The notes below the pieces were generated by a model that searched no databases, was not told the DNA's origin, and saw only the letters and a program-made list of their open reading frames with translations. Positions 1 through 5,496 of a DNA stretch of 64,000 nt are shown here, in pieces; positions within the stretch are counted from its first letter, which is position 1; every line of letters starts with the position of its first letter. Source of the DNA: Bacteroidota bacterium (GTDB lineage Bacteria; Bacteroidota; Bacteroidia; Bacteroidales; JAGNHN01); NCBI GenBank assembly GCA_022710185.1, contig JAKLHK010000007.1, positions 1-64,000 on the forward strand, in the 5' to 3' direction. Both the position numbers and the translations under genes were made by a program.

Positions 1-675
1 CCCTGGCACCAGTAAAAAGTGGTCGGGGATGAGTTGTCGTATGCCTTCCAGGCTTTCAGCCCGGGTGGCGCCTACCACAAACATCAGGTTGTCCGGGTTT
101 CCCCACGAAACAGTCTTCCGGATCACATATTCGTAGAGCGGACGCTTTTCCTTTTCCCGTTTTCCAAAGATGTCCCTGCGGTCCCTGCGCCCCGGGCGCA
201 GCAGCTGAAAGTCGGCTGAACCCTCATTGGAGGTGAGTGCCAGTACGATGGCCCACTTGCCCTCGAAGCCCAGGAAGGGGGCCACGCTGTCCTTGCCCAT
301 ATAGGGGGCCAGGGTCACCGCATCGGCGCCCAGGCGCTCGAAGAAGGCCCGGGCATACATCTCAGAGGTGTTGCCGATATCGCCGCGCTTGGCATCGGCG
401 ATGATGAAAGGCCTGGGTTCCAGTTGCTGCAGGTACTCCAGGGTGCGTTCCAGACTGCGCCAGCCCTCCAAACCGCGGCTTTCGTAAAAGGCCAGGTTGG
501 GCTTGTATGCCACCGCGTAAGGAAGCGTGGCATCGATGATGGCCCGGTTGAAGGCGAAGGCCGCATCCTCCTCCTTAAGCAGGTGGGGTGGGATCTTACG
601 GAGGTCGGTGTCCAGTCCTACACAAAGGAAGGAGCCTTTGGACCGGATCAGGGAATGGAGTTGTTCACGTGTCAT
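1..675 (-). CDS. pyrF: Orotidine 5'-phosphate decarboxylase, type 2 (partial, 3' end off the window)
   Basis: Decarboxylates OMP to UMP, the last step of de novo pyrimidine synthesis, in the cytoplasm. The reading frame is open from the ATG at 675 down to base 1, giving 225 codons; the C-terminus lies outside the window. The N-terminus FLCVGLDTD, the lysine in AYKPN (residue 58) and the catalytic D94-x-K96-x-x-D99 signature (ADAKRGD) are all visible and intact. The spacing of these motifs and the low similarity to short type 1 enzymes fit the longer type 2 family, usually about 270 residues. It starts 11 bases after the prfA stop and is probably cotranscribed with purM and prfA, so a purine gene, a translation gene and a pyrimidine gene share an operon. 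Confidence 0.95.
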
Positions 676-686
676 GGCGGGGTGCG

Positions 687-1766
687 TTATCGGTCTTCGC
701 TGACGGCTTCCTTGAGCTTCTCGGCGTTTTCAGCCACCTGCAGCCCTTCGATCAGGTCCATGATGTCGCCATTGATGATGGTCTGCAGGTTGTAATTCAT
801 ATTGATGCGGTGATCTGTCACCCGGCCCTGGGGCCAGTTGTAGGTGCGGATTTTGGCCGAGCGGTCGCCGGTAGATACCATCGTCTTGCGCTTGGAGGAG
901 ATTTCATCCAGGTGCTTCTGGAACTCGATCTCATAGATGCGGCTCCGCAACACTTTCATGGCTTTTTCCAGGTTCTTGATCTGCGACTTCTCGTCCTGAC
1001 AGGTGGCTACGATGCCGGTGGGCACGTGCGTCAGGCGCACTGCGGAGTATGTGGTATTCACCGACTGTCCCCCGGGGCCCGAAGAACAGAAGGTGTCCTT
1101 GCGGATATCGGAAGGCTTGAGGTCTACATCTACTTCGTCGGCCTCGGGCAGTACCACCACGCTCGCCGCCGAGGTATGGATGCGCCCCTGGGTCTCGGTC
1201 TGGGGAACCCGCTGCACGCGGTGCACCCCGGACTCATACTTCAGTATACCATACACATTGTCCCCGGAGACGTTGAAAATGACTTCCTTGAACCCACCCA
1301 CAGTGCCTTCGGTATAGTCCACCACTTCGGTCTTCCAACCCTGGGCCTCACAGAATTTCAGGTACATACGGTAAAGATCGCCGGCAAAAATACTGGCCTC
1401 GTCGCCCCCGGTGCCCGCCCGTATCTCCATGATGGCGTCTTTGGTATCCTCTGGGTCCTTGGGGATCAGTAAGATACGTATCTTCTCCTCCATGGCCTCC
1501 TCACGCTCGGTGAGCAGGTTCAGCTCTTCCTTGGCCATAAGGCGGAAGTCTTCATCTTTTTCCTGATACAGGATATCCCGGGCCGAACTGATGTTCGCCA
1601 GGATGTCATTGTATTCCCGGTAGGCATCCACCACGGGCTGCAGTTCCTTGTAATCCTTGTTGAGCTTGATGAACCGCTTCATGTCGCCCATGGCCTCGGG
1701 GCTGTTCATCTCCTGCTCTATCTCTTTCCAGCGCGCGTATATGGCCTCTAATTTCTCCAGCAGCAT
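687..1766 (-). CDS. prfA: Peptide chain release factor 1
   Basis: Recognises UAA and UAG stop codons and triggers peptide release on the ribosome. The 359-residue length is typical. The PxT tripeptide that reads the stop codon is PQT at residues 188-190, within [15 protein letters not shown]. The universal GGQ that enters the peptidyl transferase centre is at 232-234 ([10 protein letters not shown]). The PxT form distinguishes RF1 from RF2, which has SPF, and no programmed frameshift is present. The gene lies 28 bases after purM and 11 bases before pyrF on the same strand. The glutamine of GGQ is normally methylated by PrmC, which is not in this window. Confidence 0.97.
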
Positions 1767-1794
1767 CTTGTCCTTGGTGTTTTACTGATGGGTT

Positions 1795-2967
1795 TCAGGC
1801 GGAATAGGTATGGGTTCCGCCTTCTCCTTGTAAAGTAACTCTTCTTCCCTCAAAAGGTTCACAATGCCCAATGATCCTGGCTTCGATGCCGAAGCCCCCG
1901 GCCAGGGCAATCAGGTCGCCAGCCAGGCGCTCCTCCACATAGATCTCCATGCGGTGCCCCATATTGAACACCTGGTACATCTCGCGCCAGGTGGTGCCCG
2001 AGGCTTCCTGTATCATACGGAACAGGGGAGGGGTCGGGAAAAGTCCGTCTTTCACCACGTTCAGATCGCGGATAAATCGCAGCGCCTTGGTCTGCGCCCC
2101 GCCCGAGCAATGCACCAACCCGTGGATATGGGGCCGGAAGGCATCCAGCACCGCCTTCATCAGCGGGGCATAGGTCCGGGTAGGCGACAGGATCAGCCGT
2201 CCGGCGGGAATGCCCTCCACCTTGTCCTGAAGCCTGCGATCCCCACTGTACACCAGGTCTTCGGGCATTCCGGTATCGTAGCTTTCGGGGTATAGTGCGG
2301 CATAAGCCTTGTCCAGCACATCGTGCCGGGCCGAGGTCAGCCCGTTGCTGCCCATGCCCCCGTTGTATTCCTTTTCATAGGTGGCCTGCCCGAAAGAGGC
2401 CAGGCCGATCACCACGTCCCCGGAAGCGATGCGGTCGTTGGCGATCACGTCCCGCCTTCTCATCCGGGCATTCACCGTGGAATCCACGATGATGGTACGC
2501 ACCAGGTCGCCCACATCGGCGGTTTCCCCTCCGGTTGACCAGATGCCGATCCCATGTTCGCGCATCAGCTCCAGGAACTCTTCTGTACCCCGGATGATGG
2601 TGCTGATGACCTCCCCGGGAACCAGCCTGCGGTTCCGGCCTATCGTGGAGGAGAGGAGGATATTGTCCGTCACCCCGACGCAGAGCAGGTCATCCAGGTT
2701 CATCACAATGGCGTCCTGAGCAATGCCCTTCCAAACCTCCAGGTCACCCGTCTCCTTCCACCAGAGGTAGGCCAGCGAGGATTTGGTACCCGCCCCGTCG
2801 GCGTGCATGATGTTGCACCATGCCGGGTCCCCGCCCAGTATATCCGGCACGATCTTGCAGAAGGCCGTGGGAAACAGTCCTTCGTCCAGCTGCCGTATGG
2901 CATCGTGGACCTCTTCCTTGGAACTGGAGACTCCCCGGCGGGCGTAGCGTGATGCGTCGTTGCTCAT
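1795..2967 (-). CDS. purM: Phosphoribosylformylglycinamidine cyclo-ligase (AIR synthetase)
   Basis: ATP-dependent ring closure of FGAM to aminoimidazole ribotide, the fifth step of purine biosynthesis, in the cytoplasm. AIR-synthase signatures are clear: DGAGTKSSLAYLWWKETGD near residue 58, the segment DAIVMNLDDLLCVG, and STGGETADVGD near residue 145. At 390 residues it is longer than the enterobacterial enzyme (about 345), as is usual for Bacteroidota PurM. The C-terminal ATP-grasp-like half is complete, with the motif VFNMGHRMEIYV. It is the first gene of a closely spaced purM-prfA-pyrF group and follows the PorE-like gene by 66 bases. I see no strong promoter in that gap. Confidence 0.95.
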   Translation of the reverse strand: MSNDASRYARRGVSSSKEEVHDAIRQLDEGLFPTAFCKIVPDILGGDPAWCNIMHADGAGTKSSLAYLWWKETGDLEVWKGIAQDAIVMNLDDLLCVGVTDNILLSSTIGRNRRLVPGEVISTIIRGTEEFLELMREHGIGIWSTGGETADVGDLVRTIIVDSTVNARMRRRDVIANDRIASGDVVIGLASFGQATYEKEYNGGMGSNGLTSARHDVLDKAYAALYPESYDTGMPEDLVYSGDRRLQDKVEGIPAGRLILSPTRTYAPLMKAVLDAFRPHIHGLVHCSGGAQTKALRFIRDLNVVKDGLFPTPPLFRMIQEASGTTWREMYQVFNMGHRMEIYVEERLAGDLIALAGGFGIEARIIGHCEPFEGRRVTLQGEGGTHTYSA

Positions 2968-3033: not shown

Positions 3034-5496
3034 TTACCTGAAGATGATCTTGTTGTTTTCCTTTTCGATGGTATAGGTGCCGAAGCGCTCCAGGGTACCC
3101 TTGCCGATCACCAGGTCGTGCACCTGGCTGCGGACCACGGTGGCCTCGAGGTTGGGCACGATATTGTCGCCTATGCGCAATGATTTCAGCGTGAACACGG
3201 CCTGGTCGGCAATGGTGCCCCCGGCCAGCAGGGCTGTGGCATCGCCCTTGAAGTCCTGCTTGCTGATGGACCCGTTGCGGAGCAGTTCCAGCGCAAGGTC
3301 GAGGGAAACATTGAGGGCAGTGGCCTTTTCATCGAAATAAAAGGTCTTGGTATAGCCGCTCACGATGGCGGTACCGGAGAAGGACCCGTCCACCGGGGTG
3401 ATTTCCACCACGTTCTCGTTGGGGTTGATTACCACATTGATCTGGGTGGCGGTGCTGTCGGCGGTATCAACCGGAATGAAGTCCTTGCGCAGGATGCGGA
3501 ACTCGGTGCGGCGGTTGAGCTGGTGGGCGGCTTCTTTTACAGCCGTACCCGGAAGCCGGTTGATGTAGGCTTCGGTGAGCACAGTGCCGACCGGGAAAGT
3601 ATACCCGGCACGCGTGATGGTCTTATGGATGGTGCGCGGTACACGCTCCCCATAACCCTTGGCCACCAGGCGGCCCGGGTTGATGCCGCGCAGGATCAGG
3701 TAGTCCACCACGCTCTGGGCACGGTTCTGGGAAAGGATGTCGTTCTTCTCATCGGTATCCCGGGCATCGGTATGGGCTGCCAGCTCGATCACGAAGGTGG
3801 GGTTCTTCTCCAGGATCTGGATGAGGCCGATCAGGCTGTCCTGGTACTGGGGCTTGAGGTCCCACTTGGCCAGGTCATACAGGATCTCCGGAAGCACGAT
3901 GGGGGTCACGGGGATAGGTACCAGGATGAAATCGATGATGAAGTCCTTGTTCTCCAGCAGACCGACCGTGGTTTCCTTGGCCGACTCGCCGAAATAGCCG
4001 TTGCGTGTAACGTTCAGGTCGTAGGAGGTGAACTTCAGCACCTGCGTATTGTCGAAACTGTAGTACCCCTTGCTGTTGGTGAGTGCTTCGAAGGTGGTCC
4101 CGTTGGATCCGGTGAGCACTACCTTGGCACCTTCAATGTATTGCAGGGTACGGTCGTCGCGTATGGTTCCCGCTATGGTGAACAGCAGGGGCCGCTCGAA
4201 GAAGCTGAACAGGTCGTTGGCCCCGCGTCCCCCGGCCCGGTTGGAGGTCAGGAAGCCCCGCTCTTCCCCTTCGATGAAGGTCACGCCGAAGTCGTCGGCA
4301 TAGGAGTTTACGGGCGACTTCATGTTCACCGGGCTGCCCCAGTCGTCATCCTTGCTCTTGCGCGCCACCCTGAAAATGTCAAGCCCGCCCATGCCGGGAT
4401 GGCCGTTGGATGAGAAATACAGGACAGTGTCGCTGCGCAGGAAGGGGAACATCTCGTTGCCCATGGTATTGATAGTGCTGCCCAGGTTGACGGGCTTACC
4501 GAAGGGCTTGGTCTTGCGGTCGCGGGTGGCCATCCAGAGGTCCTTCTGCCCATGGCTTCCGGGCTTCTGGTCTGAGGCGAAGATGATCGTCAGCTCATCC
4601 TCACTGATGGTGGGATGGCCATAGGTCACCGTGCTGTCAATGTCGATCTGTACCAGTTCCGGTTCGGCCCAGCCACGACCCTTGCGGCGGGAGGAATAAA
4701 TCTCGCAGCCCAGGGTTTGCTTCTTGCCCACCCCGCAACGGGTAAAATAGAGGGTGTTGAATTTGGGATCAAAGCTGGCGGCGCCTTCGTTGGCCTCTGA
4801 ATTCACCAGGTTTTCTTCGTCCAGGAGCACCGGGGCACTCCATTCATCCTTGCGGTCGATCTGGGTGAAGTACAGGTCGCTGAAGTTCTGTCCGGTCCAG
4901 TCATCGATGCGGTTCCCTGTGCTGCCTTCGCGGGCGGAGGTAAACACCAGGGAACGGAATTTCTTGTCGGCATAAGTAGGAGCGAAGTCATCGCTCTTGG
5001 AATTGAGCTTTTTTTCGTTGGTCACCTCGTAACGCGTGGGGTTTTCCAGCCATTTCTGCGTGAGTTCACAGGATTCGTAACCCACCCGTCCGCGGGGATC
5101 GTCGGGGGCAAGCTCCATATAGGTCTTGTAGCTCTCCCTTGCATCAGTGTAGTTCTGGAGGGCCATGAGGGCCTCGGCATAGTAAAGCATGGTCAGGGGG
5201 TTCTGTTTCTGGTAGTTCACCCGGATCATGCGCTTATACTGGCTTTCTGCACGCTTCCAGTTGGCGGTCAGACGGTAGCACTCGGCAATCTGGAACAGGA
5301 TGCGTTTCTTCTCGGTCCTGTTGCTCTTTACTTTGGAATATGCCTTTTTGTACTTGTCGATGGCTGTGTAGTACATCTGGTCTTCAAAGGCCTGATCGGC
5401 TTCCTGCGTAAAATTGCGCTTCTGCTGGGCCTGAAGATCAGGCGGGACCAGCAGGGCCGAGAGAATCAGGAGGATCAGGATGTGGTATAGTCTCAT
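3034..5496 (-). CDS. PorE-like envelope protein: TPR, PD40 propeller, carboxypeptidase-regulatory, OmpA and a C-terminal degenerate retropepsin-like domain
   Basis: An 820-residue exported protein. A signal peptide (about 1-23, ending LQAQQ) is followed by TPR-like helices to about 150, WD40/PD40 beta-propeller repeats to about 430 (FTSAREGSTG, IIFASDQKPG, LYFSSNGHPGMGG), a carboxypeptidase-regulatory-like fold (about 440-520) and an OmpA peptidoglycan-binding domain (about 545-670, HTDARDTDEKND and NRRTEFRI). This order matches PorE of the type IX secretion system, which anchors the machinery to peptidoglycan. The remaining residues, about 687-820, resemble a clan AA retropepsin-like domain (TFYFDEKATALNVSLDLAL and VIGKGTLERFG), but the catalytic D-T/S-G is D722-E-K. 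I infer a catalytically dead fold. It lies downstream of tatA, near secDF, in a protein-export neighbourhood. The PorE assignment rests on domain order only. Confidence 0.8.
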   Translation of the reverse strand: MRLYHILILLILSALLVPPDLQAQQKRNFTQEADQAFEDQMYYTAIDKYKKAYSKVKSNRTEKKRILFQIAECYRLTANWKRAESQYKRMIRVNYQKQNPLTMLYYAEALMALQNYTDARESYKTYMELAPDDPRGRVGYESCELTQKWLENPTRYEVTNEKKLNSKSDDFAPTYADKKFRSLVFTSAREGSTGNRIDDWTGQNFSDLYFTQIDRKDEWSAPVLLDEENLVNSEANEGAASFDPKFNTLYFTRCGVGKKQTLGCEIYSSRRKGRGWAEPELVQIDIDSTVTYGHPTISEDELTIIFASDQKPGSHGQKDLWMATRDRKTKPFGKPVNLGSTINTMGNEMFPFLRSDTVLYFSSNGHPGMGGLDIFRVARKSKDDDWGSPVNMKSPVNSYADDFGVTFIEGEERGFLTSNRAGGRGANDLFSFFERPLLFTIAGTIRDDRTLQYIEGAKVVLTGSNGTTFEALTNSKGYYSFDNTQVLKFTSYDLNVTRNGYFGESAKETTVGLLENKDFIIDFILVPIPVTPIVLPEILYDLAKWDLKPQYQDSLIGLIQILEKNPTFVIELAAHTDARDTDEKNDILSQNRAQSVVDYLILRGINPGRLVAKGYGERVPRTIHKTITRAGYTFPVGTVLTEAYINRLPGTAVKEAAHQLNRRTEFRILRKDFIPVDTADSTATQINVVINPNENVVEITPVDGSFSGTAIVSGYTKTFYFDEKATALNVSLDLALELLRNGSISKQDFKGDATALLAGGTIADQAVFTLKSLRIGDNIVPNLEATVVRSQVHDLVIGKGTLERFGTYTIEKENNKIIFR

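Follow-up and report, generated by a model that had tools for sequence, protein, structure and literature searches.

A predicted retropepsin-fold pseudoprotease at the C-terminus of PorE in a clade of Bacteroidales

A PorE-like protein of a Bacteroidales genome (assembly GCA_022710185.1), encoded in the 64,000-nucleotide stretch of contig JAKLHK010000007.1 that we analyzed (positions 1 to 64,000, termed here the window), runs well past the point at which PorE normally stops, and structure models predict that its last ~125 residues form a retropepsin-fold domain joined to the PorE C-terminus. The same tail recurs across a large clade of PorE proteins, in which its catalytic motif has been lost while the domain itself has been kept. 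The features of the protein are collected in Table 1.

The protein matches the T9SS_PorE family model (NF052230) at 543 bits over 630 of 648 model positions (residues 27-670), which does not reach the curated cut-off of 600 bits, but it presents the complete architecture of PorE: TPR, beta-propeller, carboxypeptidase-regulatory-like and OmpA_C-like domains follow one another in the same order as in P. gingivalis PorE (PG1058/PGN_1296). The latter, a 672-residue protein with the same four domains and an OmpA domain at 534-668 (PMC7192894), binds both PorP and peptidoglycan and bridges the outer membrane barrel PorP to the wall (PMC9143113, PMC7192894); the need for PorE in T9SS secretion and PorP binding is known for P. 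gingivalis only (PMC9143113, PMC7192894). The structure of the P. gingivalis PorE OmpA domain (6top) matches residues 535-669 of the window protein (E 6e-24), and D577, N585 and R592 occur at the spacing of P. gingivalis Asp576/Asn584/Arg591; these peptidoglycan-contacting residues, shared between the two proteins, are invariant across 79 tailed PorEs. A search of its own genome returned the window protein as the sole near-complete PorE match, and in a tree with the genome's paralogues L084 and L085 as outgroup it grouped with canonical PorE and not with other OmpA/propeller paralogues. The same genome encodes a T9SS, as evidenced by SprA/Sov (TIGR04189, 2696 bits) and 119 matches to the sorting domain TIGR04183.

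Two features set the window protein apart from its P. gingivalis counterpart in addition to the lower family score: P. gingivalis PorE is a lipoprotein ending at residue 672, whereas the window protein continues for another 150 residues and has no lipobox cysteine. Because no such cysteine follows the signal peptide, the protein need not be anchored in the outer membrane in the way of its P. gingivalis counterpart. A lipobox-like match occurs in eight of 141 tailed PorEs; P. gingivalis-type PorEs (the N-termini of L228-L240) carry the lipobox cysteine, and most tailed as well as several tail-less PorEs have a plain signal peptide. Judging from these N-termini, outer membrane lipidation of PorE is not universal. 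We do not claim that the presence of the tail is correlated with loss of the lipobox, since several tail-less PorEs lack it too.

Table 1. Position of the PorE-like gene in the window and of the features of its product
Feature	Residues	Window positions	Strand	Basis
PorE-like protein with extra C-terminal domain	820 aa	3034..5496	-	NF052230 T9SS_PorE
Signal peptide (...LQA-QQKRN), no lipobox Cys	1-23	5428..5496	-	Sequence; N-terminus comparison
TPR region	27-150	5047..5418	-	Pfam TPR matches; domain order as in PMC7192894
Beta-propeller region	151-435	4192..5046	-	PF07676 PD40, 2 stretches
Carboxypeptidase-regulatory-like domain	440-512	3961..4179	-	PF13620 E 1.6e-9
OmpA-like peptidoglycan-binding domain	535-670	3487..3894	-	PF00691 E 1.6e-14; 6top E 6e-24
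Extra tail: linker and predicted pseudo-retropepsin (about 695-820)	671-820	3037..3486	-	Profiles; AF2 fold
D722-E723-K724 at the catalytic D-T/S-G position	722-724	3325..3333	-	Ungapped alignment with DTG relatives
LLRNGSISKQDFKG, most conserved motif of PorE tails	738-751	3244..3285	-	161-tail conservation
V-I-G, clan AA hydrophobic-hydrophobic-Gly motif, retained	796-798	3103..3111	-	Alignment

The last position of the NF052230 model (648) falls on residue 670, and everything from residue 671 onwards therefore lies beyond canonical PorE. A sequence-only reading of this DNA had described an extra region of some 134 residues at 3034-3450 with a resemblance to clan AA retropepsins: the extension is real, but it starts earlier, at residue 671, and comprises 150 residues (Table 1), and the resemblance was borne out by family profiles, profile-profile alignment and the predicted fold. 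When the tail was searched on its own, the clan AA aspartic protease model TIGR02281 matched at E=6.4e-6 (26.4 bits; curated cut-off 57.95), PF13975 at E=3.8e-4 (21.4 bits; cut-off 28.2) and PF13650 at E=2e-3 (19.2 bits; cut-off 24.3). Because the window tail reaches none of these curated cut-offs, we sought further evidence for retropepsin homology. We retrieved 80 loci that carry this tail (one of which, L072, ends at a contig end) and aligned 46 tails; TIGR02281 matched 28 and PF13975 matched 23 of these 46, and a tail profile searched against the PDB found Rickettsia ApRick at E 6e-4. Alignment of PorE tails to 12 DTG-bearing proteins with hhalign gave a probability of 99.8% (E 1.7e-30) over 126 columns, with the motif ungapped. 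An HMM built from these 12 Bacteroidota proteins only, which tests homology and is not an independent discovery because the proteins were originally found with the tail profile, matched every one of the 161 distinct PorE tails at 27.5 bits or more, with 75.8 bits (E 1.7e-22) for that of the window, whereas 3,220 shuffled tails reached 21.8 bits at best; among the ORFs of the window, it matched the PorE-like ORF alone. The tail is thus a true relative of the clan AA (retropepsin) proteases. That it is a lineage-specific extension whose protease likeness arose by chance, as single-sequence scores under the curated cut-offs might suggest, has a negligible probability and is ruled out by the agreement of the DTG-only HMM and its shuffles, hhalign and the fold comparison.

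The AF2 model of the tail, computed from the 46-tail alignment (pLDDT 83, pTM 0.70), is of the retropepsin fold, as the sequence-only reading had supposed: Foldseek against the PDB returned Rickettsia ApRick first (E 1e-8), followed by the retroviral-protease-like domains of Ddi1, and VIA-align placed the model on Rickettsia APRc/ApRick with a Z of 12.0 over 110 residues at 3.0 A, with Z of 10-12 against 5c9f/5c9d/5c9b and Ddi1. In a second AF2 model comprising the OmpA domain and the tail (79 sequences; pLDDT 90, pTM 0.80), the tail has a pLDDT mostly above 90, and the two halves match 6top and ApRick, respectively. The tail is like TIGR02281 proteins and Rickettsia APRc (ApRick; 5c9b, 5c9d, 5c9f) in fold and in sequence over the whole domain, and differs from them in lacking D-T/S-G, in standing behind an OmpA domain, and in scoring below the family cut-off.

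Searches of same-phylum and same-order genomes with the tail profile returned, besides PorE tails, 28 matches outside PorE, which include small lipoprotein-like proteins, TPR-fused proteins and others. All but two of the 28 have DTG or DSG at the motif (mostly DTGAS), and one of the two exceptions, L131, is truncated by the end of its contig and could be a PorE tail itself. The nearest relatives of the PorE tail are Bacteroidota DTG proteins that are periplasmic lipoproteins or fused to TPRs (among them L127, L128, L133, L136 and L092), which share with it an extended GxLxxxDxxG loop, the flap and an LLLGQSxLxxFG end, but keep D-T/S-G-A-S and are unattached to PorE. The pseudo-retropepsin of PorE and these DTG proteases share a common ancestry. 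A search with PF13650 of the genome from which the window comes, whose assembly is 92% complete, found no active relative. Intact DTGAS retropepsin domains occur in a Bacteroidota family of signal-peptide/lipoprotein and TPR-fused proteins (L127, L128, L130, L133, L134, L136, L138-L146, L092, L093), on which we found no literature. Within it, TPR-repeat proteins of ~690-740 aa carry the DTGAS domain at their C-terminus (L133, L134, L136, L142, L145, L146); L134 comprises two adjacent ORFs, and genome G602 has two TPR-DTGAS proteins in tandem.

At the catalytic position, the window protein reads F719-Y-F-D722-E723-K724, exactly as numbered in the sequence-only reading, and the inactivity which that reading had drawn from this one triplet extends to the tails at large. 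Not one of the 161 PorE tails reads DTG or DSG at this position; D is present in 57%, T in less than 2% and G in about 9%, compared to D in 96%, T or S in 97% and G in 93% of the 28 non-PorE relatives. The catalytic D is lost from 43% of tails, and whole lineages carry S, E, N, G, Q, A or K in its place. The flap A/G is likewise relaxed, at 47/64% in the PorE tails vs 89/93% in the relatives, and V796-I-G798, which aligns with the LLG of the DTG proteins, retains its G in 66% of tails. Since D-T/S-G is absent from all 161 tails, with D in just 57%, but present in 26 of the 28 relatives, the PorE tail is, as far as its residues allow us to judge, a pseudoprotease, and catalysis appears excluded for practical purposes. 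A protease still active through a non-standard site, for which one could cite the D kept in over half of the tails and a few D-x-G motifs (DRGS, DPGT), is very improbable given the replacement of D throughout lineages and the relaxation seen in the second Gly motif and at the glycine of the flap, and we reject it on the 161 aligned tails.

The domain has nevertheless been kept. Conservation has moved from the active site and flap to the motif LLxxGxIxKxDFxG, which suggests a new contact surface: in the LLRNGSISKQDFKG region, L739 is conserved in 96%, I744 in 94%, K746 in 84%, D748 in 92% and F749 in 99% of the 161 tails, and I762 (88%), V787 (91%), G806 (96%) and F819 (87%) are also nearly fixed. 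D748, which is just as fixed among the DTG proteins, is therefore inherited, whereas F749 and L739 are new conserved positions of the PorE tails. A further conserved segment, IxIxxNPExN, lies N-terminal to the fold. Among close pairs with usable dS, dN/dS of the tail is 0.02-0.17, similar to that of the PorE body, and these values point to a pseudoenzyme under strong purifying selection, not a decaying piece of pseudogene. Identity to the window protein is 36% in the tail vs 71% in the OmpA domain, and this lower conservation indicates that part of the tail's role may be structural only.

The rarity that the sequence-only reading had implied did not hold up: the tail is found throughout a clade, and it is not an extension of all PorE. 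In an order-wide sample of 393 genomes, 348 had a PorE match at E<=1e-100 and at least 104 had a tailed PorE (106 tailed loci besides that of the window, three of them second copies, plus the window genome), a proportion that depends on how genomes were drawn. The 80 of 80 tailed loci of the contig search were not used as a frequency because the query contained the tail. Among the sampled genomes of the order that encode PorE, only about 30% have the tail, so PorE in general can do without it. A phylum-wide sample of 395 genomes contained no further PorE fusion, a negative that adds little because canonical PorE (NF052230, E<=1e-140) was confined to the order in that sample.

In a tree of PorE bodies from which the tails had been removed, 55 tailed and 22 tail-less rows separated with an SH-aLRT of 100, a division cleaner than reality because the tail-less rows were high scorers. 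After the addition of 30 lower-scoring tail-less PorEs, all tailed PorEs fell into one clade of 65 rows (SH-aLRT 100) with ten tail-less members inside; this enlarged tree needs three changes of the tail label, of which strongly supported branches force one. The simplest reading of these trees is a single fusion in the ancestor of a large Bacteroidales clade, followed by a few losses. Horizontal or repeated fusion was considered and set aside, since one gain with a few losses or weakly placed rows suffices on the enlarged tree. The gene order porE-purM-prfA-pyrF is common to most tailed loci, and purM was present at all 38 tailed loci with both flanks; because it also adjoins several tail-less PorEs, the tailed and these tail-less proteins are orthologues. 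This order, seen at window positions 1-2967 and widely conserved in the Bacteroidales, is an odd housekeeping neighborhood for a T9SS gene. Second, divergent tailed copies of PorE (L153, L154, L155) occur in genomes G441, G640 and G548, and the motif of L154 is D-P-G-T-S, near DTGAS.

The pseudo-retropepsin is one of several C-terminal additions to PorE. In two other PorE lineages of the same order, a SPOR domain stands directly after the OmpA domain, at the position of the pseudo-retropepsin: L266 and L270 (family f160) and possibly L276, with PF05036 at 28.4 bits in the L270 tail, above its cut-off, and at a borderline 20.0, just under it, in L276. These proteins resemble the tailed PorEs in carrying a globular domain immediately behind the OmpA domain, and differ in that the domain is a peptidoglycan-binding SPOR and not a protease-derived fold. 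Other PorEs (L261, L264, L267, L273) end in Pro/Lys-rich low-complexity stretches. The SPOR lineages show that additions to this end of PorE arose on more than one occasion, and they make a role close to the wall plausible.

For a domain that is selected, folded and non-catalytic, the remaining roles are to bind itself or to bind something else. On the basis of its conservation pattern and location, we think that the tail probably serves, as the sequence-only reading had proposed, for docking or dimerisation, without catalysis and next to the OmpA domain that binds peptidoglycan; homodimerisation is the main sub-case. On the simplest reading, a retropepsin-fold domain was joined to the C-terminus of PorE in the clade's ancestor; it has lost its catalytic site, is maintained by purifying selection, and would have been reused for non-catalytic interaction. 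From its place after the OmpA domain, the tail should sit in the periplasm beside the wall, where the surface around the LLxxGxIxKxDFxG helix-loop, perhaps together with the ancestral homodimer interface (which may or may not survive), would contact a partner. The tail would thereby tie PorE molecules together near the wall, or link PorE there to a different T9SS or envelope protein, and could reinforce the bridge from outer membrane to wall formed by the PorE-PorP complex.

A narrower version, in which the tail is mainly a homodimerisation device that has kept the retropepsin interface of N- and C-terminal strands and turns PorE into a bivalent peptidoglycan anchor, is possible but on balance unlikely. 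Retropepsins are obligate homodimers, and a bacterial example, RloA, forms a dimer in the crystal and also runs as one (PMC12239564); moreover, PorE tails keep the C-terminal strand (F819, IIF) and have the extra IxIxxNPExN segment before the fold. However, the foremost new conserved positions lie in the helix-loop that follows what was once the active-site strand and not in the terminal strands, and the DTG-loop residues with which active enzymes bridge the dimer have been lost. RloA of Pseudomonas is itself retropepsin-like, has a signal peptide and acts in the cell envelope, but it is an active, secreted DTG enzyme that is not fused to a secretion-system component (PMC12239564).

Two further readings are each doubtful, and to the same degree. 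The tail could be a peptide receptor in the periplasmic assembly of the T9SS that retains the ancestral design for capturing a peptide without cutting it, such that part of a cargo or of a machine component would be held, in extended form, against the cell wall; if true, a protease would have turned into a receptor of a secretion system. Alternatively, the tail could be an additional cell-wall module in parallel to SPOR, with the former substrate groove binding, for example, the stem peptides of peptidoglycan, as would fit both the SPOR domains directly after OmpA in two PorE lineages of the order and a neighboring OmpA domain that keeps its peptidoglycan-binding D, N and R. The residues of that groove (flap and DTG loop) are, however, among the least conserved of the tail, and we are aware of no other retropepsin fold with peptidoglycan as its ligand.

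PorE and the retropepsin fold are each known, but in the open-access literature searched we found no description of a PorE with a pseudo-retropepsin, nor of its conservation across a clade or of DTG-bearing relatives in the same order. The tail also appears to be a bacterial retropepsin turned pseudoenzyme, and, with its DTG-bearing relatives at hand, the loss of catalysis and the rise of a new conserved surface can be traced residue by residue. PorE is one of the least understood components of the T9SS, and a fifth conserved domain offers a handle for finding the contacts of its wall-side end. Cumulatively, the pseudo-retropepsin, SPOR and Pro/Lys-rich tails show that the C-terminus of PorE is a site at which lineages plug in different modules.
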